NCBI RefSeq assembly: GCF_019059575.1
Contig: NW_024881870.1
Span: 1 to 64,000, forward strand
Origin: Amphibalanus amphitrite
Taxonomy: Eukaryota; Arthropoda; Thecostraca; Balanomorpha; Balanidae
DNA length: 64,000 bases
Reading direction: 5' to 3'
Both the position numbers and the translations under genes were made by a program. Within the stretch, counting starts at the first letter, position 1; each line of letters opens with the position of its first letter. The notes beneath the pieces were generated by a model that saw only the letters and a list, made by a program, of their open reading frames with translations, ran no database searches and was not told the DNA's origin. Shown one piece after another: positions 20,505-63,943 of the stretch.

Positions 20505-20561
20505 TTAACCCTCGCCGGCACAGGCCATTTTGCGTCCTTCGACGGCACAAGGGGAAGGGGG

Positions 20562-20816
20562 TGTTGCGTATTTTACATGTATTCAGTGGTGCTGTCTCAG
20601 TACGATGGCGGCGCGGTGGGGCAGTAGCGACGCATTAGCTGGAAGGACTAAGGAGATTGGTGACGAGGGTCCAGGGAAAAAGATGGCGGACCGATGATGT
20701 TTGGGTCCTGAGTGTGCTTGATGTTTGAAGCAGAATATGTTTGGCTGATGAATAGACCGGCTGATTCCTCCAAATCTTTGACGTGCTCGGGCCTTGCTGA
20801 TTCTGATTCCCCGACA
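20562..20816 (+). repeat. 5' long terminal repeat of BEL/Pao element
   Basis: A 255-bp direct repeat beginning TGTTGCGTA and ending CCCCGACA, nearly identical to 21625-21872. It differs by a 7-bp duplication and about one substitution. GGGGG (20557-20561) precedes it and GGGGG (21873-21877) follows the 3' copy, consistent with a 5-bp target duplication, although the site lies in a G-run. Confidence 0.93.
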
Positions 20817-20835
20817 TTTTGGTGCCGAAACATCT
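20817..20835 (+). other. Primer binding site and leader of BEL/Pao element
   Basis: Directly after the 5' LTR comes TTTTGGTGCCGAAACAT. The TTGGTGCCGAAAC sequence is the typical tRNA-complementary primer binding site of BEL/Pao elements. Confidence 0.75.
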
Positions 20836-20867
20836 AAAGGTTCCCGGTTCGTTCCCGGGTTTTATGG

Positions 20868-21431
20868 TGGGAGAGGCTGGTCAGGTCAGTTAAGACTGCG
20901 CTGCGTAAGACACTCGGTACGCGATGCCTGACTCGCATCGAACTCGAGACCGTCCTGTGTGAAGTGGAGGCCTGTGTGAACTCACGACCGCTCACCTTCC
21001 AAGGTGATACCGTAGACTGTCCCGGACCACTCACTCCGAACCATTTTCTGAGTGGACACAGCGTGGGGTTCCAGGCCAAGATCGCAGAAAGCCCGACATC
21101 TGTGAATCCTCGAGCGCTGTCTGAGAGGGCACGCATTTGTGAAATGCGTTTGAACAAATTCTGGGATGTGTGGACCAATGACTATCTCCGCAACCTGCCG
21201 CCGGCAGTGCGCGGCAAAGCTCATGGTGACCTGACGACTGGCTCGTTAGTCCTGGTCCATGAGGAGAAGACCCCTCGGCTCTTATGGGAGACGGGAGTCG
21301 TCACCCGTCTGTTCCCTGGTCGAGACGGACGGGTCAGATCCGCTGAGGTGCGAACTGGTAGGGGTCTCAAAACCAGAGCCGTACAGCGACTCCACTGCCT
21401 TGAGCTTGCTCCGTCCTATTCCTCTCCTTAG
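20868..21431 (+). pseudogene. BEL/Pao Pol C-terminal remnant (integrase end plus DUF5641-like tail)
   Basis: An open frame enters at about 20868 (WERLVRSVKTALRKTL) and ends at the stop at 21429-21431. It contains the conserved EVEACVNSRPLT segment that ends BEL/Pao integrase cores, then a basic tail with LTTGSLVLVHEEK and VVTRLFPGRDGRVRSAEVRT, typical of the DUF5641 domain of BEL/Pao polyproteins. Gag, protease, reverse transcriptase, RNase H and the N-terminal part of integrase are missing: only about 50 bp separate the primer site from integrase. This is an internal deletion derivative, so it cannot move unaided. The nearly identical LTRs suggest a fairly recent insertion. Confidence 0.88.
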
Positions 21432-21624
21432 ACTGGAATGTGTAGGCACGCTTGGTATTGCCGCCTTTCGTTTGATTCGATGCATTCGCGTTTGATCTGT
21501 TGGAGTACACTGGTTCATTTCATATGTTGTCGTGACGTACCATGCGCGTCCGTTGACCTTTGCTGACATAAGTTAGTTGGCCCAGGTATTAGGTACGTAC
21601 CTGCGCCAAGGCGGCCGGGGAGAG

Positions 21625-21872
21625 TGTTGCGTATTTTACATGTATTTAGTGGTGCTGTCTCAGTACGATGGCGGCGCGGTGGGGCAGTAGCGACGCATTA
21701 GCTGGAAGGAGATTGGTGACGAGGGTCCAGGGAAAAAGATGGCGGACCGATGATGTTTGGGTCCTGAGTGTGCTTGATGTTTGAAGCAGAATATGTTTGG
21801 CTGATGAATAGACCGGCTGATTCCTCCAAATCTTTGACGTGCTCGGGCCTTGCTGATTCTGATTCCCCGACA
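21625..21872 (+). repeat. 3' long terminal repeat of BEL/Pao element
   Basis: A 248-bp partner of 20562-20816, TG...CA bordered. About 190 bp of untranslated sequence lie between the pol stop and this repeat. Confidence 0.93.
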
Positions 21873-22731
21873 GGGGGGGTACGACCCCCCCCCCTCGCGT
21901 TTGGCCCCTGATCGAGCTAGAGCTTCGCGGAAAAAACGAGCGTGTTGGCCGTCACGAGACGAAGCCGATGATACCCAATTTTAAGGTCCTAGGTCATCGG
22001 GTGACCTTCCAGGTCAGGGCAATGACCCGAAAACCGGGAAAATCGGGACCTGATAGAAAGTCGTAAAGTGTGGCTGCTATGTGGTTTTCCGGGGTGCTGA
22101 TCACGAATATCGTGTTAGTTTTGATCAGAGATGATGTTTTTAAGCATTTAGACCAGGTTGGGTCAGGTCAGGTCAGGTCAACCGGTAGGGGTTGTGACGG
22201 GTATTCGTAATACGTGTCAACCGCGTCTCTGGCAGCTTCGTAACATGTTACGAAGGCACCAAAACTACTTCGTAAATGTTCAAATGGTTGCGAAATTCGA
22301 ATTCAGCTCCAAAAACTAGCCTAGAAACATGTAAAACTCGAAAAAGTGAACCGAGGTCACCCGAGGTCACCAAAGGTCAATGACCTGACCTGACCTTCAG
22401 GTGACCTTGACACCCACCCTAATGTATGAGAGCAACATCAAATCACATGTTTGAACGTTTGAAACCACGAAAAGCTTGCAAACGCGCGGCTAATGTGAGC
22501 CGACATACGCCGAATCGCGATTTCGGCCAAACATGGTCACGGAAAAGAGGTCACAGGTCAAAGGTCATTGGGGTCAGGGTCATGAAATTTTCAGGGAACG
22601 TGTAAAATTGATCAATGCGAGGGTACTGAAAGTTTCGTCGCGATCGGTCGGCCGCTTTTTACGCGAGTTATTCGCGAAAAGCCTTAGGGGGGTTGCATCA
22701 ACCCCCCCCCCCCTGTGCCGGCGAGGGTTAA

Positions 22732-23221: not shown

Positions 23222-23291
23222 GGCAAGAATTGCATCAAACAAAAGGCACTTGAGGGATTTGTTTCGGAGTTTCCGATAAATAAGCAAGGCA
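23222..23291 (+). repeat. 70-bp direct repeat, copy A
   Basis: Essentially identical to 24313-24382 in the same orientation (starts GGCAAGAATTGCATCAAAC, ends AGCAAGGCA). It is part of a dispersed repeat that also appears inverted at 24392-24459. Confidence 0.9.
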
Positions 23292-27999: not shown

Positions 28000-28345
28000 G
28001 GTTCGCAGAGTCCAAGGTCTGGGACCTTGATGGATCCTGGACCTTGCATTGTCATTTTTGTCGTGAGACCTTGGAAACCCAGGACCTTAAAACATCCATA
28101 TGCCGCGAGACCTTGGAATCCCAGGACCTTAAAACATCCATATGCCGCGAGACCTTGGAATCCCAGGACCTCAACATTTGCATACGTCGCGAGACCTTGG
28201 AATCCCAGGACCTCAACATTTGCATATGCCGTGAGACCTTGGAATCCCAGGACATCAACATTTCATGTGACATGAGACCTTAGAAACCCAGGACCTCAAC
28301 ATTTCATATGCCATAAAACCATGGAAACCCAGGGGTTAGGACCTC
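28000..28345 (+). repeat. Left subterminal ~42-bp tandem array
   Basis: Six to seven units with the core GAGACCTTGGAATCCCAGGA and a CATATGC-type linker. The units degrade towards the right end. Apparent frames on both strands simply follow the repeat period. Confidence 0.92.
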
Positions 28346-30000: not shown

Positions 30001-30289
30001 CATGACAATACAAATTGCAAGGTACCTATTACCTACCTATATTTTTTACGAATTTGTCAGGTTAAAGAAGGAGAGATTGATATTATGATTCATTTTTAAC
30101 TTGTGTTGAAGCTCCCCCTACCTATGTTGGTTAACGATAAAACCACCACAGTCCACAGGTTTGCGTAGGTTCTGCCCCTTTAAATGTTGCTGGGCATCCA
30201 TTGGCAGAATATTTAGAAGTAAGTCTGCTCATCAGAATGTTAGTTTGTTTAAGTTCTTGTTGTGGGACCCTGAATACTTTGGATCCTGA

Positions 30290-30745
30290 GATGTATTCTT
30301 GCCGTGGGACCTTGAGGACTGTGGACCCTGAACTCTGAAGTGTGTACTTGTCATGGGACCTTGGGGACTGTGGATCCTGAAATTCACACTTGTCGTGGGA
30401 CCCTAGGGACTGTGGATCCTGCAATGCATTCTTGTCGTGGGACCTTGGGGACTGTTGATCCTGCAATGCATTCTTGTCGTGGGACCTTGGGGACTGTGGA
30501 CCCTGCAAAGTATACTTGCTATGGGACCTTGGAAACCTTGGATTCTAGAAATTGAATTTGCCGTGGGACCTTGGAAACCTTGGATTCTAGAAATTGAATT
30601 TGCCGTGGGACCTTGGAAACCTTGATTCTAGAAATTGAATTTGCCGTGGGACCTTGGAAACCTTGGATTCTAGAAATTGAATTTGCCGTTGGACCTTGGA
30701 AACCTTGGATTCTAAAAATTGAATTTGCCGTGGGACCTTGAGGAT
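30290..30745 (+). repeat. Right subterminal ~42-bp tandem arrays
   Basis: Two sub-arrays, in the same orientation as the left one. At about 30300-30530 the unit is CGTGGGACCTTGGGGACTGT with CCTGCAATGCATT; at about 30530-30735 it is CGTGGGACCTTGGAAACCTT with ATTCTAGAAATTGAATT. There are about five copies of each. Confidence 0.93.
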
Positions 30746-30780
30746 CCTGGATCTTGATTTTTGGTCCCGGCACAAGTCTG

Positions 30781-33700
30781 GTCTGTGCAGACCACCACTG
30801 GATCCTCTGTGTGCGCCGGGTGCTGTCGCAGGTACTCGAGTGCTGCGTTGAGGGCTACGAGCTCCGCCCTGTAGCTCGAGCAGAGTTTGCCGGCAGCGAC
30901 CCGCAGCTCCCGGGTCTCGCCGTCCGGCAGCTCGAGCAGAGCTCCAGCACCTCCGCTGGCGACTCCTCCGTCGGCCGCGCCGTCCGTCCATACCCACGTG
31001 GCGCATTGTGGGAGGCCGCTCAGGTGGAGAGTGGCTACCTCCAGCTTCGTCTGGGCAGATGCTGCTCTCGGCGGGAGGCCGGGCCCGACGTCCAGGCGGA
31101 AGGTCACGCCGTTCGTGGTCACCCATGGGGGTTGCCGGCTAGCGAGGATGGGCTCGATCGGCGACGACACGCCAGCCGCCTCCCAAACCTCCATGCCCAC
31201 CTGTCTCCAACCAGTGACGGAGGACAGGCGCGCCGGCACCACCTCGTCGGCGACGGTGCGGAGCGGGTCCTCGCGCAGCAGGGCTCTCGCCTTGGCCAGG
31301 AAGCGGGCCGCCAGCGAGAGACGCCGCTCCGAGACCGGGGGCATACCGGCTTCCGCCAGCAGCGCGTGGGTCCGTGTTGAGACGGGGCAGCCCGTGATCA
31401 CGCGCGCGGCCGCCCGCACTTCACGTTCGAGGATCTCGACGTGGGAAGCGGGTGTGGCAGGCAGCCAGGCCGCAGCAGCATGTTCTTGGGGGCCCCTGAC
31501 ATATCCATTGGCCACCGCTCGAAGTTGCTGTTCTCGGAGGCCCCAGTCACGCCCAGTTAGCCTCTTGAGCTGGGCTATCCGGGGACGAGTCTTCTGTCGC
31601 AGATTTCTGCAGTGCGCCCCGAAGTGGAGGGTGCGGTCTAGAGTAACTCCAAGGAGTTTCAGCTGGGCGCCCGCGGCCACGGTCTCCCCTGCTACCTTGA
31701 TGTAGCAGTCGACTGCGTCCTTGGGGGCTTGAGAGAGGACCAGCACCTGAGTTTTTTCGCTCGCCACCCTCATCTTCGAGGCGAGGGCCCACTGCACCAG
31801 AACATCAGCCGCTTGCTGGGCTCTCCGCCGTGCGACCAGGATGGTGTTGCCAGAGCACAGCGTCGCCGTGTCGTCGGCGTACATGTACGGCGTCGTGCCT
31901 GGGATCTTCTTCAGGGCGTCTGCCAGTGGCGCCGCCCATAACAGGAACAGGGTCGGCGCCAACACGGTTCCCTGTGGTAGACCTGCTCTGAAGATTCGCT
32001 CGCGGCTCTTGGTGCCATTAACTTCTGTGTGAGCTCGGCGGTCGCGGAGGAAGCTCCAGATCCAGGTGATGAGGCAGAGTGGTATGCCTTGTTGCAACAG
32101 TCGGACGCGGAGTAGCCGATGATCCACCGTGTCGTAGGCTCGGGAGAAGTCGAACGCCGTCAGGACGTAGCGTTGGGCCGTCTCGCCGTCCGCTGGCTGC
32201 TTCTTACGCGATCGTGGGCGCTGCCATCCGTCCTGAACCTGCTGCACCAGTCGCCCCAGGCTGTCCTCCACGGAGCGGCCCTCACGGAAGCCCACCTGTT
32301 CGGGTGGGATTAAGTTCCGGGCCGCTACAACGTGGTTCAACCTGCTGAGGACTAGGCGTTCGACCAGCTTGGAGACGTGACTGGTGAGCGCGATCGGTCG
32401 GTATGAGGAGATCAGGCGTTTGTCCTTCCCGGCCTTTGGGATAGGGCAGATTGTGGCCTGGCGCCACTCACGTGGGACGGCTCCTTCTTGCCAGCTGCTG
32501 TTGATGGCGTGCAGGAGTTCCCGTCGCGCGGTAGGGCCCAGGTGGAGGAGCATCTCAGCCGTGATGCCGTCGGGACCGGGTGTCTTCCTCAACTTGAGAG
32601 AGTTCAGCTGCCGGACCAGTTCGTCCATGCTGAAGGCTCCGCAGCATCCCACACGGGCGCCGTCACACTCTCGGCACGTGGACGGGGTGAGGGCCTTCCT
32701 CTGCTGCTTCGCCAGGCGGTCGACCTTGGGAACCCTTACTTGGCGTGAGACCCAGGCGTATGTTTGACAGAAGGCGTCGGCCTTGTCGCCGTCCTTGACT
32801 AGGAGGCGTCCTCCGTGTTCCATAGCCTGGCCGTCTCTGTGGTCGTCGTCGGTCGCACCTTCCCATCGTTTGAGGATCTTCGACACTCGGCCGATGCTGT
32901 TGGGCTTGTTCAGCTCCTCGGATACCATCTGGTGGAATCGTTGGCGGGAGACTCTCGCCTCCACCTCCGCCGCTCGTCGTCTGGCTTCAACATAGCGCTG
33001 GATCGTCTCGGGGACTGCGGGGTCCACTCGGGCCTGTGCTGAACGGCGGTCCGCGATGGCCTCCTCCAGCTCCGGGTCTGTAGCCCAGGGCTTCGGATCA
33101 GCGCGCGCCCCACAAGGGATGTGTCGCGCGCTGGCTTTCTGTAGAGCCGCAGTGAAGCGCGTACACAGCTGCTGTGCCGTTGCACCCCGAGGAGGGTCTG
33201 CCAGGGCCGCTTCGCACTCCGAAGACCAGGCTGACCAGTCGGCTTTCTTGAAAGCCCACCGGGCCTTGCGGACTCGTCTTGAGCTGCTGAAACCGCTCCG
33301 CACAGTCATCTTCATCACCCGGTGGTCGCTACCGAGCGAGTCGTCCAGCAGCCATGATGTGCGGCGGGCCAGGGAGAGGGCGCACATCGCGATGTCCGGT
33401 GCCGTCTGACTGTCCACTCTGGTCGCTTCTCCAGAGTTGAGGACCGTCCAGCCGGTCCGGTCCAGCCAGGTCGCCACTCGATCCCCCACGTCATCCGCCG
33501 CATCACAGGTCGAGTCCCACAGAGGATGGTGGGCGTTGAAGTCCCCCACCACGATGGAGTTGTCATCATTGGGGAGAAGGTCTGGCTCGAAGTGGTCCTC
33601 TCGTTGGTCCTCCGCTGATGATCGAAGGGGCGGGCGGTACAGACACCAGATATCCAGCGGGCGGTTACCCAGTATCTTCACGCCGCAGATCTCCGTCGAG

Positions 33701-33972
33701 TCATCCGCAGCGGCGAGGGGACGGTCCGTCAGGGGGGTGAAGTGGATTCCCGCGCGAACGTAGACCGCCACGTCCCCACCCTTGACAGACGGTGCACCTG
33801 TGAGTCGTCCTCGTGTCCGTCTGGTGACTACTGGAGGCTGGAAGCCCCGGATCCTCGTTGCAGACCGGGAGAACTGGCCCTCTTGAACTGCTACCACATC
33901 CGCCTTGTTTGACAGGAGCCAGCGTTCGAGCTCACCAACCTTGGGTTGTAGCCCGTTCGCGTTCCAGCACAC
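30781..33972 (-). pseudogene. Non-LTR retrotransposon ORF2 (endonuclease, reverse transcriptase, start of RNase H)
   Basis: An open frame of more than 1060 codons. Counting residues from 33972: an apurinic-type endonuclease domain (about 1-225; WNANGL at the N-terminus, GDFNAHHPLWDS at 143-154, GSDHRVMK near 214). The reverse transcriptase follows (about 450-780; KTPGPDGI near 464, SSYRPIALTS near 522, AFDFSRAYD near 606, GLPQGTVLAP near 664, YADD near 698). RNase H starts near 994 (VWTDGAADGG, then SSYRAELVAL with the catalytic Glu). The frame is cut at the VVCTD strand by the transposon at 27961-30780. Endonuclease, reverse transcriptase and C-terminal RNase H together point to the I group (I, R1, LOA, Nimb and relatives). 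The frame continues upstream without ATG, so the true start is uncertain. Confidence 0.96.
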
Positions 33973-36528: not shown

Positions 36529-36532
36529 TTAA

Positions 36533-37688
36533 CCCGCGCCCCGTTGGGCTCTGCCGAGCAACGCGCCCTGTTGGGGGGGGCCATTTTGCCCCCCCCCCCT
36601 AAGATCTCGAGAACCACGCAACCTAGCGACAAGCGACAAACGGTGTTGGATAGCCCTATCAGGGAACTACCTTGTGACCCAATTTTATTGACCTAGGTCA
36701 AACCGATGACGTCACAGGTCAGGTCAAAGGTCCAATTTTCACCGTTTACAGGCATTTCAAGAAATGCGTTGTAAAATCGAGTAAAATACATTTCATTGAA
36801 AATCATCGATGGGGAAATGTTCTTCAAACACATATTTTGCTATTTGAGGTCACTGATACCAGGTCAGGTCACAGAGGTCAGGTCACGGGGGGTCACAATA
36901 TGAAAGTGTCGTGTGATACATGTTTTATGGTCCATTTTACATGACGAATGCGATTATGTGGGTCAGGCAGCCTTTGGGGCCAGCTTAGGTCACGTTTTGG
37001 TCAAGGTCAGGTCACATTAGGTCAAATTTCAAAGTTAATATTTTTGCATAAAATGGGTATCGAATCGATGCAGCTCGTCACGGGGAGTTCAATGGTGGTC
37101 TTTGTTTTGCCGTACGTGGTCTAGAATCGCTAAAAATTGAGTTCAAAAATTTGACGTCATCATTTTTGAACAGTTTTTTCCCTATAACTTGGCCAAAAAA
37201 AAAAACGAGATATCGATCTGAAATTTGGTATGTATATAGAAGAGCGAAGGGACTATCACATATATTCTGGTTTTTTCGAAATTCGGAAAAAATTTGATTT
37301 TTTTAGTTTTTCGTAAAAAATCAATTTTTTGAATTTTTTAGGGTCAAAAACCAAAAATTTTGAAAATCCGAGATAGCAGTTTTGTAGGGCCGCTTTTTGT
37401 CTACTAGACCATATAAAGAATTTTGAAATTGCTTGATAACTGTAGATTTGGTGAGCGTTTCAAGATTGCATGTTTTTTGCTCATTTTTGCTCCAACATGA
37501 CCTCAGTTTGACCTCAATAACTCCTGACCTAAGGTGACCTAAGATTTGAAATTTGGTGTGAAGGTGTCAAATTGATGCCCGGGAAGGTACTGAAAATTTG
37601 GCGGCGCTGCGCGCCGCCGTTTTCTTGCTATTCAGGAAAAACCACAGGGGGGGCCAAAATGCCCCCCCCCCCCCCAACGGGGCGAGGG
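36533..37688. mobile_element. TTAA (piggyBac-like) element, copy 2
   Basis: 1156 bp, flanked by TTAA (36529-36532 and 37689-37692). Inverted ends: TTAACCCGCGCCCCGTTGGG left, TTAACCCTCGCCCCGTTGGG read inwards from the right. Both ends carry a G-run/C-run hairpin around CCATTTTG (left) or CCAAAATG (right). The interior holds many AGGTCA/TGACCT half-sites, including TCAAGGTCA. No coding frame. Confidence 0.93.
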
Positions 37689-37692
37689 TTAA

Positions 37693-40266: not shown

Positions 40267-40270
40267 TTAA

Positions 40271-41458
40271 CCCGCGCCCTGCTGGGGGTCCTGGATTTCC
40301 ACGCCCTGCTGGGGGGGGGGGTGTTTGAACACCCCCCCTTGTAACTCGGCTCCTGGGCCACGTAGCGATACGCGGAAGGCGGCGTTCGAAAGAGCGTCAA
40401 AAATAAGGACGAAATCACTTCGGTCAATTTTTTGGTCAGGTCAAAGGTCAGGTCACCAGAGGTCATTGAAGGCAAAATTTCGCCGATTTCCAGGTCGAAT
40501 GTCGAAAATTTCCAAGAAGCCAACGCATAACTCGGGAACCAATAGAGCTACAGCGCCGCGGAAAAGCGCATTCGATAGCCCTATTAACGCCCTTTCTGAG
40601 TAATTCTCTCAGATTTGACCTAACGTCAACGGTTTTGCCTGCAGGGGGCAAAAACTGCAAAAATAGCCGATTTTTTCGAAAACAGTTTTTCTGCAATAAC
40701 TTTTGACCCAAGCCTTGTACGAGCTTACTTTTACCGGCATCGTGTTCCTCTCGTCAAGACGCATCGAATGAACTATAACTTGACCTTGAAAGGTCAACTT
40801 GAAAATTTGACCTCAGGTCAAGGTCATGACCTGACCGGAAAGGGTCATGTTGCATATCAGTCGATCCGTATCGTCGAGCTGAACACATCTAAGGCGTTTT
40901 CATCGCTCTAGCATGCCTCTATCAAAAGTTATTTGCGAAAAACTGATAGATACCATTCGTGACCTAAGATGACCTCAGGGCATAAACAAGGGTCACGGAC
41001 ACCATTTTCAAGCTCAGTGTGTCTAAACCACTTGTAATTCGGTGTTTGGGAGTGTTTATAATGTCTTTCATCCAAAAGAGGCGCATTTCAATTTTCTCCC
41101 ATTGACTTATAATGGGGAGGTCGCAAAATTGACCTGACCTTAGGTCATCGATATCAAAATTCTGAGATATACATTTTGTACATGCTATTGCTCTTAGCAA
41201 TCGCTGAAAGTTTCAAAGCGATCAGTCACTCGGTGTAGCTATGACAGACATTGAAAGTTTTTATGAGGTGAGGTCACTTCAAGTGACCTGGTGACCTGAC
41301 CTTGAATGACCTTGGTCTGAAATTTTCACAACATGTGTAGAATTGATGTATGATAAGGTGTACCAAAAACGGCGGCGCTCCGCGCCGCCGTTTTTGAGAT
41401 ATTCGCGAAAAACCACAAGGGGGGTGTTCAAACACCCCCCCCCCCAGCAGGGCGCGGG
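40271..41458. mobile_element. TTAA (piggyBac-like) element, copy 3
   Basis: 1188 bp, flanked by TTAA (40267-40270 and 41459-41462). Perfect inverted ends, TTAACCCGCGCCCTGCTGGG. Each end carries a hairpin with a G-run, the palindromic core GTGTTTGAACAC and a C-run, identical at both ends. By eye about twenty AGGTCA/TGACCT half-sites lie inside, against well under one expected by chance. No coding frame. Confidence 0.95.
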
Positions 41459-41581
41459 TTAACGATGTGGCTTTCACAAAGTTTAGAATGCCAAAATGTT
41501 TCTCACAGTGCTGACTGCGGACTGCGGAGAAGCATGTTCATGCTTCAATTCTGACTACAGACTCATCTTACTCACTGAGCC

Positions 41582-42546: not shown

Positions 42547-43028
42547 GTGAAAGCCATAGGCGTAGGAACGTTTTCGAAAGTGGGGGGGCCAAGGTCCCAG
42601 AGGTCCAAAACCTAACCTACCCCCGAAATCCAATTTCTCCTCGGATTTCGGCCACTTTGTTTTCGCAAACATGCTCAGAGGTAAAAAAAAATCGAGACAA
42701 AAACAAAAACAAAATTTGTTAAAACTTTAGGGAGACTCCCGTCCATAAAATCAAACTGATGGACGCGTTCCCCTGTCCTCCGCAGCCGTTGGCACCCATG
42801 CAAATTCCAGAGGCATCCAGCAACTTTTTCATTACGAGCAAGCGTGAAACGTGCAAAGCGAATCTTTTCAATATACCTATAAAAATCAGCATGAACGGCT
42901 CAACCAGGCCTATAACGTTTTTAAGAGGTTTTATATCAGCGACCACTGGAACTGTGCTGATTGACTAGCTATCAGAGGCCGGTGGGGGACTTTTAGAGGC
43001 CGGTCTGGGCCCTCAGAGGCCAGTTTAA

Positions 43029-44030: not shown

Positions 44031-44960
44031 ACTGCCGACTTGGGCCATCAGAGGCTAATGTGGGTCCTTAAAGGCCAGCATGGGCCCTCAGAGGTCAGTG
44101 TGGGGCCCTAAAATGCCGGCATGGGCCGGTGTTGGACCCCAGAGGCCAGCAGAAGGCCCTCAAAAACCAAGATGGGCCTCAAAGGCCAGCATCAGGTCTT
44201 CAGAAGCCAGTGCAAGGCCCTCAGAGGCTAATGCGGGTCCTTACAGGCCAGCATGAGCCCTTAGAGGTCAGTGTGGGGCCGTAACAGACCGGCATGGGCG
44301 GGACTTGGAACCTAGAGACCAGCGGAGGGCCCTCATAGGCCAACGTGGGTCCTCGGAGGTCGATGCGGACCCTTAGAGACCGGCATCGGATCTTCAGAAT
44401 CCAGTGCGGGGCCCTCAGAGGTCAATGTGGGACCCTAAAATACCGGCATGTGCCGGTACTGGACCCCCAGAGACCAGCAGAAGGCTCTCAAAAACCAAGA
44501 TGGGCCTCATAGGCCGGCATCAAGTCTTCAGAATCCCGTGCAAGGCCCTCATAGGCTGATGTGGGTCCTTACAGGCCAGCATGGGCCCTTAGAGGTCAGT
44601 GTGGGGCCCTAAAATACCGGCATGGGCCGGCGTTGGACCCCTAAGGCCAAGATGGACCCTCAGAGGCTGATGCGGACCCTTAGAGGCCGGCATCTGGTCT
44701 TCAGAATTCAGTGCGGGCCCTCAGAGGCACCTAAAGGTTAGTCTTGGGGCCCCAGAGACAGAAATGAGGCCACCAGAGGCCAGTGTGAGGCCCTCAGACG
44801 CCGGCTGGGCCCTTGGGGCCGGTTTAGGGCCCTCAAATGAGGTCAATGTGGGTTCTCAGCGTTCAATGTGGCCGCTTGACCGCCACTGAAGGGCCCTCCG
44901 AGATCAGTGTGTGTAGGACCCTCAAAGACTGGTTTGGGATTTGGGAGCTGTTAATAGCTA
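44030..44960 (+). repeat. Minisatellite of ~24-bp GGCCCTCAGAGGCCAGTGTGG units with higher-order repeat
   Basis: About 35-40 degenerate units. A block with the same series of unit variants appears twice (about 44090-44300 and 44410-44640), indicating a higher-order period of roughly 330-370 bp. Related units recur at 50200-50710. Confidence 0.85.
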
Positions 44961-45628
44961 GCGTGGGATTGTTGAGCCTCGTGACAATCGAATAAGGGCC
45001 AGAGCCCCATACGCCCATGGGGAACCATTGGTTGTTTGGCGGGGGGGGGGGGCAAATGATATGATGGCCCCCTGATTAGCCTTTGGAGGGGGGAAGGGCA
45101 TGACCCTGATCCCCCCCCCCCTCTGCGACCGCCACTGCACTGAAAGTGGAAGGGGGAGGGGCAGATACAGACATTGCTGGCCCCCAGCCTGTTTGAACCG
45201 AGGCGGGGGCACGGTCACCCTGGCCCCCAGCTAGTACGCCTTTGACGAACTATGCCGACCCCAAGCAGATCCGGTCAAGCGTTGGTCGTTTGTATGCGCA
45301 TTCTTCTGCACCGTGCTAGTATTGTCTTATACCTTTTCAGTGCTCGCTGTCCCGCGCCTCGTATTCAACAAAATGCTGTCACCAGGACCCACAGTCTTGT
45401 CTCTGATATGGTTTCCTTCATTGAGTGAAGGAAATTGCGGTCAATAACGCTGTAGAAACAAAAGGGAATCTTCATTAGAGCAAGCTGAATAGTTGTCAAG
45501 TTACCGGGCGGTAGGTAGGTCAGCGAAAAGTGGGGGGGGCAGTTAACATTGCTGGCCCCCCACCTCCGATAGTGGGGGGGGCCATGCCCCCCCCCGGCCC
45601 CCCCCCCCCCTGTTCCTACGCCTATGGT

Positions 45629-45789
45629 GAAAGCCTTATCGTAAAGCACTCTGCTAATATCGATCTGAGTGTGAATGTGATTGCGCATTCAAGGTTCAGT
45701 TCATTGTATTTGAATGAACTGAACCTTGAATGCGCAATCACATTCACACTCAGATCGATATTAGCAGAGTGCTTTACGATAAGGCTTTC
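45629..45789. repeat. Perfect 77-bp inverted repeat (hairpin)
   Basis: Left arm 45629-45705, 7-nt loop, right arm 45713-45789, with no mismatch seen. The arms match the dispersed repeat flanking TTAA copy 3. The left arm begins inside the target duplication of the 3072-bp element. Confidence 0.95.
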
Positions 45790-45957
45790 AAAAGGTTATC
45801 GATATTCGGTATGAATATGAATCTGAAAGGCGATATAAGACGCACAGGCATTCAGAATGAAGCTAAATGTCGATGAAGGCCATTGATATTCAGAGCGAAT
45901 CTGAATGCCGATAAAGGCCATTGACATTCGGACAAATCTAAATGTGAATGTCAATAT
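45790..45957. repeat. Degenerate GAATCTGAA-rich repeat
   Basis: Short repeated motifs (GATATTCGG, GAATNTGAAT, AAAGGC(C/G)ATTGA) in a low-complexity tract that continues the dispersed hairpin repeat. Confidence 0.55.
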
Positions 45958-45965: not shown

Positions 45966-47033
45966 CATGGGTGGAGAACCTGCCCCGGCCACCCCGGCCG
46001 TGGCCGGGGTAACTTTCAGCCGACCCCGGCGCGGCCGGGGTAACTTTTTCCACTTTTGTAAATCCTAAAAGCTGTCTCCATACGAAAAAACTGCCATCTA
46101 TAAAAGCGTCTCTCGTTATTCTTATCTACCTTGAAAAGTTCTTGAAAATGTACTTTATTTTCATTTTGGAGCTTCTATGTTTTTAAGTCTTTTCATCGCG
46201 GAGCCCGACATGTTTCATCAAACAGAAGTATATCATATTTAAGGGCCGTTATCGTAAGATGGCACTGTAATAACATCACAAGACAGGACGAGGGTAATAT
46301 CAGTGAGATAGAAGGACGAGCTGCTGGGGCTCAAGGCTCCCCCAACTTAACCCGCGCCAGGGTGGTGGCCTTATCGTAACACGTTGAGTCGAGAGGTGGG
46401 CTTTTCACGCTCCTTTTAACTCGGCTACTGGGCTACGAGGCGAGAAGCAGAACGACGTTTGAAAGAGCGACAAACGTGATCAGAGAAATATGGTCATGTT
46501 TTAGGCAAACTCAATAATAAAATCACCGTAGATCATCAAAAGCCAAATTTTTCTTAATTTAGCGTTCTCCGACAACTTTTCTCACAGTTCATGAACATAA
46601 TGGAGCTTAAACACTGCAATCAAAACATTCGATTACTCGTTTAAGGCTCGGTCGCGAATAATATTTCAGGTGCGAGCTCAAATCAATAAGAGGGTCAAAA
46701 CGGTCAAATTTGACATTTTGTTTTGTGTGGGAAGGTTGCAACTTCCACGGAATAAGCTTTGCAAAGGGCATGATGGCATTTTTAGCACGATCATCCAGCA
46801 ACTTTGACCTGATGACCTGACCTATCACTAGGTGACATGCGAATTACAATTACGAAATCTTCCGCACCTGCGTGCAGCAGTTTTCCCTAAAAACGTACAA
46901 ACGGCAGACATCCATTATTCTATGCCACAGAATAGGAGTTTGTTGATAACCGTTGACAAATATTTGACCATCATCGTCTTTCTGACTTTCGGTCGCCGGC
47001 CGGGGTAACTTTTTCAAACATTCTCCACCCGTG
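45966..47033. mobile_element. 1068-bp hAT-like non-autonomous element
   Basis: Flanked by the exact 8-bp duplication GATGCAAC (45958-45965 and 47034-47041), with inverted ends CATGGGTGGAGAA / CACGGGTGGAGAA and subterminal CCCCGGCC-rich inverted motifs. From 46351 it contains a degraded TTAA-family segment. No coding frame. Confidence 0.92.
46351..46830. mobile_element. Degraded TTAA-family fragment, copy 5
   Basis: Starts TTAACCCGCGCCAGGGTGG (TTAA at 46347-46350). Its first 150 bp resemble the same part of copy 3 (TAACTCGGCT...GGGC(C/T)ACG...GAAAGAGCG). No right end found; the end is approximate. It holds far fewer AGGTCA-type sites than the other copies. Confidence 0.55.
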
Positions 47034-50199: not shown

Positions 50200-50915
50200 G
50201 CCAGATTAGGGCCCTCAGAGATCAGTACAGGGCCTGCAAACTGCAAAGGCCAGTAGTTTGAGACCATCAGAGACCGAGTTGGGCTCTCAGAGGCTAATGT
50301 GGGTCCTTACTCATTACAGGCCAACATGGGGCCCTCAGATGTCAGCGTGGGGCTCTAAAAGACCGGCATGAGCCGTCGTTGGACCCCAGAGACCAGCAGA
50401 GAGCCCTCAAAGGCCAAAATGGGCCCTCCTCAGAGGCCAATGCAGGCCCTTAGAGCCCGGCATGGGGTCTTTAGCAGCCAGTGAGGGGCCCTCATTGGCA
50501 CCTAAAGGTTCGTCTTAGGACACCAGAGACAGAAATAAGGCCACCAGAGACCGGTGTGAAACGCTCAGACGCCGGTTCGGGCCCCTGAGGCCGGTTAGGG
50601 GCCCTCATAGGCCAGATGTGGGGCTTAAGAGGTCGATGTGGGCTCTTAGCGGCCAACATGGGCGTTTGACAGCCACTGAAGTTCCCTCAGAGGTCAGTGT
50701 AGGTCGCTCAAAGACCGGTGTGGGAGCTATATTAATAGCTTGGAGTGGGTTTTTTGAGCCTCGTGACGATCGAATAAGGGCCAGGGCTCCATACACCTAT
50801 GGAGGCCCATCGGTTGTTTGAGGGGGGGGGGCAAATGATATGATGGCCCATTTTATTGGCCTTTGGGGGGGGGGCATGACCCTGATGCCCCCCCCCCACG
50901 CGACCGCCACTGTGT
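50200..50915. repeat. Second copy of the minisatellite-containing repeat
   Basis: Shares GGCCCTCAGAGGC-type units and then a long unique-order match with 44780-45140 (GAGCCTCGTGACNATCGAATAA, a G-run, CAAATGATATGATGGCCC, a C-run, GCGACCGCCACTG). The common right end GACCGCCACTG looks like a transposon terminus. No left partner was found. Confidence 0.75.
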
Positions 50916-54447: not shown

Positions 54448-55941
54448 CAGGGCCTCGTCTAACATGTTAACTGGGGGGGCAATTGCCTCCCCAGTCGAGC
54501 GGATTGCCCCCCCCCCCCCAGTGGCCAACATTTGCCCCCCCCCCCCAGTCAAAACGTGAACTTCTCACAAAATTACCTTCCCTGCAATACGTTTTCGTTA
54601 GGAGTCTTACATGGATTTAACGAGAAACATTATTTGTTCAAAACTGTTCATACTCCATGACTACGGGAAAAGCCAGAGTTTTGTGATCTATAGAGCTGAG
54701 TACCTACTGTGATTCCGTGATTTTGCTACTGTGATTCAAGTAGCAAATTGTCAATTGGCAGCTGACCAGTGACCCACCCAACTCGTGTTTGCGCCCCACC
54801 CCCCACTCAATCAAACGCCCAACATGGATAAGTATGCTTATCACTGTCTGGTGGGGCAATGTGAGGGGGTAACACATTAATCTTAACTCTCGCCCGTATT
54901 GGTGTTTTTCCAGCCGCGAACAGGGAGGGGGGGGGGGCGTTGGACCTTGCCCCTTGCCGTTTCGCCCCTGATCGAGCTAGAGCTTCGCGGAGAAAACCAC
55001 CGTGCTGCCCGTCACGAGAGGAAGCCGGTGATACCTCATTTTAGGGTCCTAAGTCATCGGTTGACCTTCCAGGTCAGGTCAATGACCCAAAAGTCGGGAA
55101 ACTCGCGGGACTTATTACAACGTCGTAAAGGGTGGCTGTTATTTTTTGTCGGGGTGCTGATCACGAATATCATGTTAGTTATGATCATAGATAATGTCTT
55201 CATGCATTTAGGCCAGGTCGGGTCAGGTCAGGACAGGTCAACCAGTAAGGGTTTTGCCGGGTATTCGTAGTAGGTGGAAACCGCCTCTGGCTCTGACAGC
55301 TTCAAAACATGTTACGAAGGCACCAAAACTACTTCGTAAATGTTCAAATGGTTGCTAAATTCGAATTCAGCTCCAAAAACTGGCCTAGAATCATGTAAAA
55401 CTCGAAAAAGTGAACCGAAGTCATCAAAGGTCAATGACCTGACCAGACCTCCCGGTGACCTTGACGCCCACCCTAATGCATGGGAGCAATATCATATTCC
55501 ATGTTTGAACGCTTGAAACCACGAAAAGACTGCAAACGCGCGGCTAATGCGAGCCGACATACGCCAAATCGCGATTCCGGCCAAATATGGTCTCGAAAAG
55601 TAGGTCACAGGTCAAAGGTCATTACGGTCAGGGTCATGACATTTTCAGAGTAAGTGTAAAATTGACTAACGCGAGGGTACTGAAAGTTTCGTCGCGGTCA
55701 GCCGCTTTTACGTGAGCTATTCTTGAAAAACCAAGGGGGTCCGTTCGACCCTCCCCCCTATACGAGCATGGCTCGGATTGCCCTTTTTTGTTTTTTGTTT
55801 AAAAAAATCATGGTCTTAGGTGTGACGAAAAATAAGTGGCCTAAATTCGTTGAGAAAACAGGATTTGGGGGTACCCTAGGTTTGGGTCCTTCAGTCTCTG
55901 CCCCCCCCCCCCCCAGTGAAAATCCCTTAGACGAGGCCCTG
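54448..55941. mobile_element. 1494-bp hAT-like element containing a TTAA-family element
   Basis: Flanked by the exact 8-bp duplication AAGAAAAC (54440-54447 and 55942-55949), with 15-bp inverted ends CAGGGCCTCGTCTAA followed by G/C runs. CAGGG is a typical hAT start. No transposase. It carries TTAA copy 6 inside and ends 233 bp beyond the stop codon of the neuropeptide gene. Confidence 0.93.
54887..55765. mobile_element. TTAA-family element, copy 6 (diverged)
   Basis: Begins TTAACTCTCGCCCGTATTGG (TTAA at 54883-54886). Its body is collinear with copy 1 (GATCGAGCTAGAGCTTCGCGG; AACATGTTACGAAGGCACC; AGGTCACAGGTCAAAGGTCA). The right terminus is degenerate and its boundary approximate. Confidence 0.8.
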
Positions 55942-56174: not shown

Positions 56175-56908
56175 CTACCGCATCGTACTGAACTGGTGCT
56201 CCGGACCGGAGAGCCGCTCGCTGACCAGCCCCTGGGCCGACAGCGTCTCGTCCTCGGCGTGCCGTTTGGCGCGTGGCTCGTCCAGTTCGTCCGCCGAGCG
56301 ATCGGAGGCCAGTCTCGGCCCGGTGAGCTCCTGAGAGACGGCTGACGGCTCGACGGACGGCCCGCCGCCCACCTCCCGTTTCATCGTGTCAAAGTGGCCC
56401 ATGCCGCCTCTGAAAACGTCGTCATAAAACCCGCTCGCTGACATTTCGGGCCTACGCTTCATGGGTTCAAAGTGTCCCATATCTCCTCTGAAGATATCGT
56501 CATAAAATCCGCTTGCCGACATCTCGGGTCTGCGCTTCATTGGCTCGAAGAGTCCCATGCCTCCCCTGAAAACGTCATCGTAGAATCCGCTGGCGGTCAT
56601 CTCCGGTCGCCTCTTCGCCGTCTCGAATCCCTCACCAACGGAACCTTCATTAAATCTTCCGCCAGTCGCCTTGTGCATCCTGCCGCCTGCGTGAAATCCT
56701 CTCTTCACCGGGGAGAACGCGCCGAAGCCCTGGTTGAAGACGTCGCCGTAGAAGCCACTGGCTCCGAGCCCGTTGGGAGCACGCTTCCAGTTGAGGTCCT
56801 CGGAGGCGCCGGGGGCCGACCAGGCCGAGTGTTCGGCTCTCTTGTGTCCCAGCAGACGGCGGAACGCGTGTGGAGGTCGCATGGCGTACGGCGAGTGGGA
56901 GTCCAGAT
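56175..56908 (-). CDS. Neuropeptide precursor, main coding exon (orcokinin-like?)
   Basis: The terminal coding exon of a secreted peptide precursor. It follows a pyrimidine-rich tract and CAG acceptor (56909-56911), starts in phase to complete the split codon of 59537-59615, and ends at TAG (56175-56177). It has eight Lys-Arg sites. Between them lie three near-identical copies of RPEM(T/S)ASGFYDD(V/I)FRG, each continuing (G/D)MG(L/H)F and (E/D)(P/T)MKR, and one diverged copy, ASGFYGDVFNQGFGAFSPV. There are no cysteines and no Gly before the cleavage sites, so mature peptides are probably not amidated. The GFYDD...GMGHF pattern resembles orcokinin (NFDEIDRSGFGFN) and orcomyotropin (FDAFTTGFGHS) at Asp, Gly-x-Gly and hydrophobic positions. 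This is inference; it may be an undescribed family. Confidence 0.88.
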
Positions 56909-59615: not shown

Positions 59616-62600
59616 CTGCGGTAGGACAGGGCTCACTATCACTTCAATAACATGCTGAAGGTCCATTCAAAGCCGCAGAGATAGTCAGTAGGTTAAACGT
59701 CAGACAGCAGAGTACAAGCTTCTGGACAACTTATTGTATCAAAACTGGTAACAATGGTCAAACTGTTTGTCTCAAACGACATTTCAGTGACTTTACACCG
59801 GGGCGTGATCGGCCCGAGCTTCGAAACTACATACGTTAAGATTTGACAGGCATCAGATTATCAGATTATTGGTGGGTAGTCTAGCCTTGTTTTGAACATT
59901 CCCAGAGCTGAAATAGACATGTGCATAATTCGATATAAAGCTCTTAGAAATAATGATTTAGCATATAGTGGTAGGTTTTTTCATCTTAAAGTCAAATCGG
60001 GTATTCTTTTTCTTTTTAATGGATGACTCGAACATGTGTTAATTCATTTTGATAGTATTTTGGTGCCAGCCAGATGATCATGTGGCTTTGGCTAGTCACA
60101 CATTTAGAACACTAACAACTCTGGGGAATGGTGCATTGCCTTGGTTATCAAGCATCCACAAAGCAAATTGCCCCTTCTGTATGTCAGGGTCCAGGAACTG
60201 GCGAGTATTCCTCATCGTAAAATGAGGGATGCTTAACAATTCATTGTCTTATTTCCGCCATGCATATGAAATTCGGTCCATGTTTTATGCGTCCTGTAAG
60301 CATAAACAAGGCACGACAATCAGTATGATGATACTCGCAACCATCAACAGATGTATTGCACGTGCATTTAGCACAGTGAAGTACACACTATACGTGACTA
60401 CAAGGACAAACTGGAAACGCTGATATTGTGCAAACGACATCATCAGCACTTATGAACTACCGCCCCATTTAAAACGACGGATGGTCCCCCAGCAAAGCAT
60501 GGCCAGTAAATTCAGAAGTAACTGTGTGTCCGGCATTCCATTAAATAAACCGTTTAATATCGGTCATCCTCCAGCCGCAGCTGACGGATCGTTCCCTGAC
60601 GGTCGTTCGCTCCGTCTCACTGTGCAAGGAATACAGTGCAGAGGTCACACAAAAGAAGGTCACCGGTGCCCATTATGCCTGTGGCGTTGCCGCGCGCGGG
60701 GGCCGGTATCTGCGAGCCTCTGTGCCTAGGCGGACGGTACGCGTAACGACCCGCAGGATCCAGCTCATCACGGCGGCTCGCCAGCATTACCGAGAGCATT
60801 TTCCCGCCCGCGGAATGGATCGGATGGTTTGCTGTAATGCCGGAGCGGACAACCCCATGGCAGGGCCTCCTTGCAGACGGGTTAGCAGCCTAATGTCGCT
60901 TAATGGGATGTCCTGTCCTCGGGCAGGCTAAGGTCGATGTCTGCAGGGCCATTTCCTGCACTTACAGGCGAAATTCGAACCAGCTGTGTCTACTTGCTAG
61001 AAAATGGCATTCCCGGTAGGTTGACAGTATCAGTGGCCCACTTGGATTAAGTAGTGAAGTGTTTTAAGATCTCTAACAATGTGCTGAGACAATTAAGTTA
61101 AGGCTGGAGGTCTCTCCGAGAATGGCACAAACCTTCAGGCACAGTTGGAGTAATGACCCGTTATCTGTTTGAATAAAACTTTGATAGTCTTACTGTTTGA
61201 CGAGATAGTTCGTGAGCCATTCTTGAGTCTTAACTTTCCGTAAGCTTTGTTAGTGACTTGTTCTCATTGTTATGATGGGCTTATTCCGCACATGCAATGA
61301 AACGCCATCCGCTCGACCAACGGTCTCGTAAATGTTTGCAACTAAATACCTTGATCGCTCCACCGAAACGCTCTTTACGAGAATGGGTCGTCATCAGCAG
61401 CCTCTTATTTCGACATGAGTAGGAGCAAAACTATCTTTTCCAATCAGTTACTAAGTGCTGCTCGTTTGCCTCATGATAGGCTGTGGCAGGTCACTCAATT
61501 ACACGCTGTCCCTGGGTTCCATCGGCTGGTCAATGACCTTGTCCTGATCTGGTGCGATATATTTTCTTTCTTGTAAGGACACTAAGCCAACATGTTAACG
61601 CCCACAAATGCTGGGCTCTGCTCCTGCCTCCCCACAACCCAAGCGCTGGCGAGAAATGGTGCAACGTAATACCTTAAGGTGCAACTTATGTATACTCGAA
61701 CCCAATGGGTTGGAATAATATTCAGCTCTTCGATGCAGTTCCCAGTCATCTTTACTCCAGCGGCATTGACGTTAGGGACTTGAGGCTGGAAAGCACCAGA
61801 AGTGCTTGCATAGTGGGCCGCCATCCTAACCTTTCGGCCACTTTAACCGGTCAGCGGCTAGTTTGGTCGATCGACCCGATACGTGGTGGACTGTTTTCCC
61901 TGGAGAGCTCGGCTGCTTTATTCACTTCTCTCTTAAATCCCATGGGGAAGCAATAGCTCAAAGGGAAAGGAGTTAGCTATTGGCGCAGAAAAGTGCGTGA
62001 TTGATTTATATACCATCGTAGGTTGTTTTTAGTGAATCTGAGTTGTTGATGGATTACATAGTGCATCAGACCAGGCAGCATAATCCATAGAATACTCGAG
62101 CGCGATGTTTGTACAGTGATTTCAAATTCACCTAGAATGTTTTACATGTTTGTGTGTGTGTGTTTTTAAGGCAGCCAGAAACCAAATCTAGTTAGTTTAA
62201 TTCCAGGTAGGTACCAGTGTTTGCCAGTTGGAACGAAATTGCAATGCATGAGGCTCATTAATTCGTGTCTTGCGCCAAGTGTTATGGTATTCCATTGTTT
62301 TCATGAGACATTAGATAGCGTAACTCTTCAGCTGTTTTGTAGAAGCACAAGTACGGCCCTCCAGGTATTAAGTGGTTGTTGCCAGCATCACAATAAACGA
62401 TCTGCATTTATGAATATGTCTAGTGTCTGTTGAAAACCATTGCCGAAGTGTGTGCACGAACCATCTTCTCATTTCTATTGAGTCGTTTTAGAGGAGTGTC
62501 TCTGTCATTCGAAGTTATTACACCAAAAGCACATAGGCTAACCAACCACTCTTTTGCTGGAGGGCCGTACCTTTCAAATGACCTTTCAATGCATATTTCA

Positions 62601-62734
62601 CATTAAAGAATGCCAGAATAAGACTCGTATACCACTAAGACATCACTTCTCACAGATCGGGAAGAACCACCTATAAAAGGACATGAAGCTTATTCCACCC
62701 ACCAGACCTAAATGGGGTCTTTTATGTCCTTCCA
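59616..62734. other. Upstream of the neuropeptide gene; no other gene recognised
   Basis: Should contain the promoter and perhaps a 5' untranslated exon of the neuropeptide gene, but I could not place them. Open frames here are short and unsupported. A (GT)n tract lies at about 62150-62164. Confidence 0.5.
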
Positions 62735-62738
62735 TTAA

Positions 62739-63943
62739 CCCGGCACCGCCTAGGCTATTTCCGTACCCACATCAGCCTGGGGGGGTCGGATCCGACCCCC
62801 CCTGTTATCTCGAGAACCAATGGTCGTATCGAGCCCCGCGAGGCGGCGTTCGAAAGGTCTCTACGAGACCTTCCCAAAGCACTCTTAAGATTTTAAGATT
62901 GAGGTCAACTTTCGGGTCAAGGTCAGGTCAAAGGTCAAATTCAGGGGTTTTGCATGATTAGGCTTACGGACAGCGGAATCGATAGCTGCTGCTCGAAACT
63001 CACCACAAATGACCTCAAAGACCTAGTGAAGGTACCATGTGCGTATAGGGGTCATACTAAGTACGGGTCAAGGTCAGGTCAGGTCACGAAAGGTCACGGT
63101 TTTCACTTTCTGCTACATGGGCGTGCGACACATGTTTTATGGCTTATTTTTGACGCCAAATCCGATGGTAATGGTTATATGTGACCCCACGTCACTGTGC
63201 TGGTGATAAGTGTGCATTGAAAGCATAAAAAATCGTTTATACCATACATAACTAAACGAGGGCTAAGAAAAAAGTCAATTTTTCAACTTTTTATTTTTGA
63301 CATAAAAATGCACTTTTCTAGACCAGCTTTGTCCCAGAAATCTAGTGGTGCCATTTGTTTTCACATGCGATGTTCAGAAGTGCCTCTAATTCGCGAAAAT
63401 GCTGATGACGTCACCATGCCCTATGCATGTTGGAGCTATTTTTTACAATTTGGGGGTCAAAAATCAAGATAAAAAGTTGAAATTTGGGACATCTAATGTT
63501 CTAATAGAGCTCTATAACATATATTCCGGTTTTTTGGAAATTCTCAAAATTTTGGATTTTATTGGCTGTTTTCCAAAAAATATAGTTTTTTGAGTTTTTA
63601 GGGGTGAAAAACGCATTTTATGGAAAATCCGAGATAGCCATTTTAAAGAACTCGTTGAGTTGCGTCTTTTCATGTCCTTAATTTGCAATTTGCTTAAAAC
63701 CTCGATTTTTGGGGATCTTTTAAACATTTACCATTTTTTGACTGAAAACGCCATGTAGTTACATCACTAAAATCGATATATCTCAGAAATTTTTGAAATT
63801 TTTTTCTTAAAAATTGCACAGGAGACGTCAAATTGATGGGGGAGAAGGTATGCGAAGTTTCAAGTTGATAGCGCAAGCGGTTCATGAGCTATTCAAGAAA
63901 AACGGAGGGGGGGTCGGATCCGACCCCCCCAGGCGGTCGCGGG
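62739..63943. mobile_element. TTAA (piggyBac-like) element, copy 7
   Basis: 1205 bp, flanked by TTAA (62735-62738 and 63944-63947). Ends: TTAACCCGGCACCGCCTAGG left, TTAACCCGCGACCGCCTGGG read inwards from the right. A G-run, TCGGATCCGA and C-run hairpin lies at both ends with the same core; a short insert of about 25 bp separates tip and hairpin on the left. The body has AGGTCAAAGGTCA and TCAAGGTCA motifs. No coding frame. Confidence 0.92.

Follow-up and report, generated by a model that had tools for sequence, protein, structure and literature searches.

The piggyBac element of T. ni targets TTAA and has a terminal inverted repeat (TIR) that starts with CCC, and how transposases find their ends in chromatin is, to our knowledge, poorly understood. 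Here we analyzed 64,000 nucleotides of the barnacle Amphibalanus amphitrite (positions 1 to 64,000 of NW_024881870.1, which is contig C373 in a genome assembly of 807.55 Mb and 2,644 contigs). This stretch, called the window below, carries seven TTAA elements (E1 to E7) that are rich in the hexamer AGGTCA. By their sequence, these elements belong, without being autonomous, to a single lineage of the piggyBac superfamily that has the TIR CCC[G/T]CGCC, or close variants of it, and an unusual end architecture. RGGTCA is the half-site of nuclear receptors, and a preliminary description of this DNA had suggested that the family could spread hormone-response elements through the genome. We think that the words probably serve the element itself, as a nucleosome-phased subterminal array bound by its own transposase.

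Several described systems come close to this. In T. ni piggyBac (PDB 6x67/6x68), the cysteine-rich domain (CRD) of the transposase reads a subterminal palindrome (PMC11707139). The barnacle lineage resembles T. ni piggyBac in its TTAA target, its CCC-starting TIR and a DDE transposase that aligns over residues 137-664, including the CRD. However, T. ni piggyBac is described with identical 19-bp palindromes at each end (PMC11707139), whereas here a 6-bp word occurs 14 to 16 times per end over about 750 bp, in clusters about 165 bp apart. The piggyBat transposase of Myotis lucifugus is also homologous, here over residues 173-540 only, and the piggyBat left end has several transposase sites, one of which restricts activity; an active form, however, has ends of 153 and 208 bp with other motifs (PMC11707139). 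In Galileo, the tandem repeats in the long ends add sites for the THAP zinc finger of the transposase, but Galileo belongs to the P-element superfamily, and its abstract describes no nucleosome-length phasing (PMC3688188). The coral CMITEs are families of TTAA miniature inverted-repeat transposable elements (MITEs) that have TIRs differing between families and are tied to piggyBac-like transposons, but they are about 100 bp long with a conserved internal 75 bp, and no motif arrays are described in the abstract and opening results (PMC2872659). The non-autonomous Helentrons Cg_HINE of the oyster likewise hold satellite-like tandem repeats within an abundant mobile element, although they are not TTAA elements and the abstract describes no transposase-site role for the repeats (PMC7492417). 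Finally, the retinoic-acid elements of Alu show a repeat family spreading RGKTCA direct repeats; the consensus spacing there is a single one, 2 bp (DR2) (PMC1785376), whereas no one fixed dimer spacing is found here. Among the open-licence PMC papers listed by our searches, which lack most of the subscription literature, no title or opening of an abstract describes piggyBac ends with arrays of AGGTCA or with nucleosome-phased arrays.

The window contains 125 copies of the hexamer (76 AGGTCA and 49 TGACCT), and 93 of these lie inside the seven elements (6,913 bp), giving a density of 13.5 per kb compared to 0.56 per kb outside. Each element holds 3 to 21 copies, the lowest number being that of the partial copy E5, against a mean of 0.20 to 0.54 and a maximum of 3 in dinucleotide shuffles, and each lies above its own shuffles; the saturation with half-sites that had been noticed is thus real. 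GGTCA is the most over-represented 5-mer in the elements, with 127 copies where the remainder of the window would predict 13.6. Since it is mostly preceded by A (93 of 127) or G (24), we write the word as RGGTCA. The five copies named previously could all be recovered, E1, E2, E3 and E7 with TTAA at both ends and E6 at the left only, and two partial copies, E4 and E5, were added. The third copy, earlier given as 1188 bp with about twenty hexamers, is E3, with 21 in 1196 bp. The features are as follows, with positions in the window and no strand assigned unless stated; DR1 is a direct repeat with a 1-bp spacer, and LTR is a long terminal repeat.

E1, 20505 to 22731: TTAA-flanked and non-autonomous, with CCCTCGCCGGCACA as the TIR at each end and four clusters that hold 16 AGGTCA/TGACCT
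LTR element inside E1, 20562-21872: 5-bp duplication GGGGG
DR1-DR1 triplet of E1, 22548 to 22567, plus strand: feature of the E1 subfamily, exact in four of the five E1-type copies examined
E2, 36529 to 37692: TTAA-flanked, TIR CCCGCGCCCCGTTG / CCCTCGCCCCGTTG, 17 AGGTCA/TGACCT
E3, 40267 to 41462: TTAA-flanked, identical 14-bp TIRs CCCGCGCCCTGCTG, 21 AGGTCA/TGACCT
E3 site cluster 1, 40438 to 40465: centred some 184 bp inward of the left TTAA
E3 site cluster with TTGACCTCAGGTCAAGGTCATGACC, 40781 to 40832: composite also present at the left end of the relative AUT666 (see below) and, with a single base changed, at the right end of AUT666
E3 right-hand clusters, 40960 to 41312: centres near 40972, 41134 and 41289, with about 170 bp between the last of them and the right end
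E4, 43025 to 44040 (right end approximate): partial, right end decayed, 16 AGGTCA/TGACCT
E5, 46347 to 46860 (right end approximate): partial copy, 3 AGGTCA/TGACCT
E6, 54883 to 55775: E1 subfamily, TTAA (54883-54886) at the left only, right end decayed, 11 AGGTCA/TGACCT
E7, 62735 to 63947: TTAA-flanked, 9 AGGTCA/TGACCT, every one in the left half

TTAA is duplicated at both ends of E1, E2, E3, E7, AUT666 and the copies in L007, L011, L018, L022, L025 and L026, and is present at the left only in E4, E5 and E6. The two ends of any single element match at 10 to 14 of the 14 TIR bases (CCC[G/T]CGC...). E1 is interrupted by the LTR element, so that its own length is about 916 bp. The LTR pair of this insertion is 99-100% identical where aligned, and its short inner part has an open reading frame (ORF) with DUF5641 at 20964-21431. 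Just inside the TIRs of E1-E7 there are palindromes made up of G and C runs, such as GGGGGGGTCGGATCCGACCCCCCC in E7. In E3 and in E7 the palindrome centre matches between the two ends, but among elements it differs. Degenerate repeats of about 20 bp, of the TGGGCCCTCAGAGGCCAG type, lie beside E4 at 44041-44830, on its other side at 42960-43024, and at 50267-50740.

The family is abundant in the genome. A blind sample of 20 pieces of 10 kb has 379 AGGTCA/TGACCT compared to 94 of the reversed word. When a finder of TTAA elements with matching ends was run on this sample, the window and eight DR1 loci, it returned 18 rows, and 11 of these are AGGTCA-rich elements with the TIR CCC[G/T]CGC, 888 to 1,196 bp long and with 7.9-19.6 hexamers per kb (E1 is longer and diluted by its insertion). 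Three rows join the ends of different elements, two are TTAA elements with the TIR CCCTATTAGTGGCA and no AGGTCA, and two, with the TIR CCCTAACAATCCC and 2.2-2.5 AGGTCA per kb, lie in the tandem-repeat sample L027. The words in L027 and L028 lie outside the TTAA family; they recur with a long and regular period, about 1.87 kb in L028, like those of long tandem repeats. A genome scan for further copies, proposed earlier as a check, found the end word TTAACCCKCGCC 69,752 times (34,791 forward and 34,961 reverse ends) compared to 117 times for the reversed pattern. If most copies have two such ends and measure about 1.1 kb, the family would number about 35,000 copies and make up some 5% of the genome; as an exact end word misses variants, the true copy number may be larger.

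A search of the genome with PF13843 gave at least 116 piggyBac transposase matches, and none of the 116 listed lies on the window contig. One, AUT666 (C33:446859-452044), is an element of 4,723 bp from its TTAA/CCCGCGCCCTGG start to its ...GGGCGAAGGTTAA end, with the right terminus GGGCGAAGG-TTAA, and has E3-like DNA on both sides of the transposase gene; the only other internal TTAAs are two in the left AGGTCA region. Its ORF of 666 codons matches PF13843 (DDE_Tnp_1_7) at 1e-59 and aligns with T. ni piggyBac 6x67 over residues 137-664, through the CRD. The aspartate motifs are kept in this alignment (TIDES/TIDEQ, LTMDRYFTS/ITCDNWFTS and TKGGVDVID/TKGGVDTLD), and we take these aspartates to be the catalytic ones. 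The TTAA duplication, the CCC/CCY TIR and a DDE relative with conserved aspartates place the TTAA elements and AUT666 in the piggyBac superfamily, as far as sequence can place them. Positions 1-709 of E3 are 66% identical to the left end of AUT666 and positions 472-1196 are 61% identical to the right end, so E3 is built like AUT666 minus the gene. As it has no transposase gene and has its ends in common with a transposase-bearing element, E3 can be classed as a MITE-like non-autonomous element. The alignment makes AUT666 a relative of E3; that it is the very source of E3 would be a further claim. The AUT666 protein is encoded at three places with 100% identity (rounded), which fits recent movement, although these loci could partly be assembly duplicates. 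E3 itself is 99% identical to the copy L026c (L026:5698-6893) at another locus with unrelated flanks, an indirect sign of transposition or excision.

The position of the words within AUT666 is informative. There are 16 AGGTCA in the left 760 bp, none in the next 475 bp, 1 in the following 1,997 bp, 2 in the next 758 bp and 14 in the right 733 bp, so that only 3 fall in the middle 3,230 bp. Sites that are subterminal and hardly present in the gene fit a function in transposition. A second transposase, AUT674 (C527; 673 aa), has a right end, CCCTCGCACGACC, homologous to the left end of E1 (68% over 192 bp), and RGGTCA units of about 187 bp are repeated in tandem upstream of its gene. Among the 18 transposase loci examined, nine have CCCATTA-type ends, and others have CCCAGG or CCCAGA ends or ends that could not be located. 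Both ends were located by the TIR search at nine piggyBac loci (L029, L030, L033-L037, L042 and L046; in L042 the TIRs agree at no more than 9 of 16 bases), and these have 1 to 5 scattered RGGTCA and no clusters; we therefore rejected these other piggyBacs as partners of the elements. Two of them, L030 and L037, are unrelated piggyBacs of the CCCATTAG kind that have gone into TTAA sites within copies of the E4 and E7 types. A tree was built of 15 rows from the 18 loci; L032, L045 and L046 gave no usable frame by the motif filter, and the frames of L033-L036 and L042 are incomplete or shifted. In this tree the two transposases whose surroundings are rich in sites group as a single clade (100/100). 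The proteins of this clade end in a cysteine-rich, T. ni-like C terminus, which was not seen in the tails displayed for the other rows (that of L042 being frame-shifted). This link of clade and C terminus to the sites compares two loci with thirteen rows, some of them identical, and is suggestive only.

The spacing of the clusters is a feature that the preliminary description did not contain. In the window and the sample, with the tandem-repeat samples L027 and L028 left out (and L001-L008 as well in one related analysis), distances between sites peak near 165, 330 and 490 bp, with nearly nothing at 60-110 and 240-280 bp. In eight representatives, with L011e included and AUT666 taken whole except for the 3,400-bp gap across its gene, 23 of the 27 gaps between clusters measure 130-215 bp (mean 167, sd 17), and the other four are 126, 128, 364 and 521 bp; the gaps in E4 are 184, 155, 174 and 171 bp. 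The first cluster is placed with respect to the end itself. Among 25 exactly matching ends in 264 kb, each followed by at least 260 bp, 21 carry sites at a distance of 147-207 bp inward of the TTAA, compared to none at 117-147 bp and one at 207-267 bp; sites occur at 20-87 bp in one end, at 87-117 bp in two, at 267-297 bp in none and at 297-387 bp in 19. Genome-wide, there are 34,791 forward ends and 21,776 matches to forward TTAACCCKCGCC with AGGTCA 157-186 bp from the end, compared to 0 and 1 in the controls. The count on the reverse strand (38,324) exceeds the number of reverse ends (34,961), so that there sites rather than ends seem to be counted. Same-strand pairs of the word number 67,184 at 66-95 bp (control 9,220), 572,367 at 151-180 bp (7,208), 67,412 at 231-260 bp (6,228) and 315,554 at 316-345 bp (5,915), totals that include satellites and other repeats with the word, such arrays being among the 66-95-bp places listed on contig C1.

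A spacing of about 165 bp is that of nucleosomes, and the DNA between the clusters has a matching rhythm. In 23 spacers from eight representatives (E5, E6 and near-duplicates were left out, and L011e and AUT674 were not used), AA/AT/TA/TT dinucleotides recur every 10.5 bp (z 6.1, a peak reached by 0 of 300 shuffles), and AA/TT alone every 10.25 bp (z 6.0, 1 of 300). SS dinucleotides (S being G or C) in the same spacers have no rhythm in the 10-bp range; their own peak, at 12.0 bp, was reached by 34 of 300 shuffles. The AT power at 10-10.5 bp is 3.43, compared to 1.70 in 795 site-free pieces of the genome (reached in 0 of 5,000 draws) and 2.06 in 18 cluster-free pieces of the same elements, and a redundant set of 58 spacers has its highest ratio to the control, 2.1 times, at 10.0-10.25 bp. 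The site period and the AT rhythm together have the form expected of a nucleosome-phased array, and nucleosomes may sit on the spacers.

A simpler origin has to be weighed against this. Slippage of AGGTC together with tandem duplication of a unit of about 165-187 bp might have made both the clusters and the period without any function. Expansion of the pentamer, already offered as the alternative to hormone-response elements, explains the 5-bp steps, as 5 bp is the commonest direct step in nine representatives (27 pairs; a step of 10 bp, or DR4, follows with 20). In AUT674 neighboring tandem segments are still 64-86% identical, the first two units of AUT666 (0 and 1) are related (z 16.6), and some inner units resemble inverted copies (2 and 3 in AUT666, 3 and 4 in L022e). 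Since such units are recognizable, the period probably goes back to a nucleosome-length unit that was duplicated in tandem, conserved clusters and spacing being what remained. A second conserved motif of 14 bases typed from the reading of the units, TAACTCGRAAACCA, was rejected as a general mark (9 matches, compared to 2-7 in five shuffles). However, pentamer growth leaves unexplained the phasing, the restriction, among the elements examined, to one kind of TTAA element and the conservation of the sites. Between E3 and AUT666, identity at RGGTCA sites is 88% in the left and 82% in the right end, compared to 65% and 63% elsewhere. Exact hexamers are kept at 10 of 15 (left) and 11 of 18 (right) sites counted from E3 and at 10 of 16 and 12 of 17 counted from AUT666, whereas other hexamers are kept at 0.13 and 0.11 (10-14% overall; non-CpG hexamers 0.083 and 0.129). 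Thirteen pairs were compared in both directions, and in all 26 comparisons retention lies above the control; between E1 and L007e base identity is level at sites and elsewhere (0.87 and 0.86). When the motif was masked before alignment, 11 of 15 sites in the left ends of E3 and AUT666 still landed exactly on a same-strand site (null mean 0.14), as did 13 of 20 in E1/E6, 15 of 20 in E1/L007e, 16 of 20 in E1/L025e, 17 of 21 in E2/L018e, 9 of 21 in E2/L011e, 12 of 24 in E3/L022e and 17 of 20 in E4/L026b. Many units within one element no longer align, yet their spacing holds; units within E1, E2, E4 and E7 show no comparable similarity, except for the terminal units of E1 and E2. The hexamers thus stay far above the adjacent DNA, the first cluster sits one period from the TTAA at most ends, the coding region has few sites and the spacers have their 10.25-10.5-bp AT rhythm, all of which speak against functionless growth, and we regard it as a doubtful explanation.

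The half-site itself raises another possibility, namely, that host nuclear receptors of the USP/RXR, EcR, HNF4 or FTZ-F1 class, or another RGGTCA-binding protein, keep the sites, the copies then scattering response elements. Such a factor might drive expression of the transposase, make the chromatin accessible or direct the element to particular places in the nucleus. The core is that of a receptor response element with free flanks (94% of 176 GGTCA in nine representatives are preceded by A or G), and repeat-borne receptor sites are known, as in the DR2 of Alu (PMC1785376). The perfect DR1 pairs reported for the window are there (AGGTCAAAGGTCA at 22555, 40438, 55609 and 62925), as is the DR1-DR1 triplet in E1 and E6, starting at 22548 and 55602, which four of five E1-type copies keep. 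Genome-wide, DR1 is 2.2 times as frequent as DR2 (47,085 compared to 21,234), but overlapping hexamers at a step of 5 bp (258,952) exceed DR1 5.5-fold. Of 17 elements, 8 contain DR1, and the two that bear a transposase are not among them. Conservation of DR1 spacing among diverged copies, which had been proposed as a test, thus fails, with DR1 missing from nine elements and steps of 5 and 10 bp favored instead, and diverged copies do not keep one preferred dimer spacing of the DR1-DR5 or IR1 kind (IR1 being an inverted repeat with a 1-bp spacer; the counts for it and for DR4 cover the elements of the window and the representatives only). As the 5-bp step is the commonest and DR1 is absent from so many elements, receptor-dimer geometry is not what is kept, and DR1 was rejected as the organizing unit. 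The sites of FTZ-F1/ERR type can be found as words (TCAAGGTCA six times on the plus and five times on the minus strand of the window, 0-3 per element, with those at 42294 and 47212 outside the elements), but the 35 isolated sites show no TCA 5' extension before AGGTCA. Moreover, the sites persist in elements that have no gene to drive, and they go with one transposase clade and not with the nine other piggyBac elements whose ends were both located. The idea of a family spreading hormone-response elements therefore stands as far as the half-sites are real, kept and present genome-wide, and falls where receptor-dimer spacing is concerned, which is neither favored nor shared. We consider maintenance by a host factor unlikely. 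The array could also be the target of a host protein that acts in silencing or on chromatin, such as a zinc-finger protein, with phasing that reflects how this protein packs the copies. A repeat-binding host protein would meet such a phased array of sites as well, but its site should tend to be lost, whereas here it is kept in a lineage with an open transposase frame, and this explanation seems very improbable to us.

The subterminal place of the sites at both AUT666 ends, their persistence in gene-less elements and the transposase tree point to the transposase, and clusters that are located at the ends about 165 bp apart make transposase docking more likely than a hormone-response network. 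We infer that the AGGTCA repeats have been kept because the transposase docks on them during transposition, most likely via its C-terminal CRD. At each end there are several clusters, the first about 175 bp inside the TTAA and others about every 165 bp; we propose that the spacers wrap as nucleosomes, in which case each linker would expose a cluster, and many transposases could load along each end.

A number of observations weigh against this interpretation. Only two of the 18 transposase loci examined are site-rich, and AUT674 was read without its left end. Some halves or parts of elements have no clusters (the right half of E7, the middle of E2), and the orientation of the sites is not consistently inward: E2, E3, E4 and E7 lean inward and E1 and E6 do not, so that simple directional subterminal repeats were rejected. 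The genome controls for the rhythm have a GC content of 0.51 compared to 0.45 in the spacers and are thus unmatched, and the redundant set of 58 spacers is also raised 1.8-fold at 7.0 bp. The phase of the rhythm shows little relation to spacer midpoints, where the dyad would lie (Rayleigh p 0.11-0.17, n 23), or to right edges (p 0.07-0.36), with p 0.004-0.018, uncorrected, for left edges. Part of the period comes from tandem duplication, as in AUT674 and the first units of AUT666. Finally, masked alignment gave few coincidences in the right ends of E3 and AUT666 (2 of 18), in E2/E7 (1 of 21) and in E3/E4 (4 of 24, null 0.18). Across subfamilies, therefore, exact positions drift; the places of clusters persist and single sites move.

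The window holds some further features. A LINE-like (long interspersed nuclear element) uninterrupted ORF of 1086 codons with endonuclease and reverse-transcriptase domains lies at 30712-33972 on the minus strand, with 42-bp tandem arrays at its downstream side (28065-28333 and 30254-30753). Two arrays of 153-bp units (13191-14398 and 14591-15951; 95% matches each) are apparently one unit in opposite orientation, and there is a perfect 78-bp inverted repeat with a 7-bp loop at 45628-45790. An ORF at 56175-56882 on the minus strand has four repeats like ASGFYDDVFRGGMGHFEPMKR and resembles a neuropeptide precursor, with no Pfam match at E 0.001. The window has no Rfam match at the gathering score and no tRNA.

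Transposase docking and receptor binding could also be combined. The transposon may write its own chromatin, with phased nucleosomes and RGGTCA linkers that are read by the transposase and by host receptors alike, the latter because the word equals their half-site. We regard this as a rather speculative extension, but if it is true, mobility and local chromatin would be coupled, through tens of thousands of copies, to the hormonal or moulting state of the animal. For transposon biology, this is a family with 69,752 exactly matching ends whose layout looks fitted to nucleosomes. In a genome with 47,085 perfect DR1, such transposon ends would swamp predictions of receptor sites, which is relevant to scans of animal genomes for hormone-response elements.

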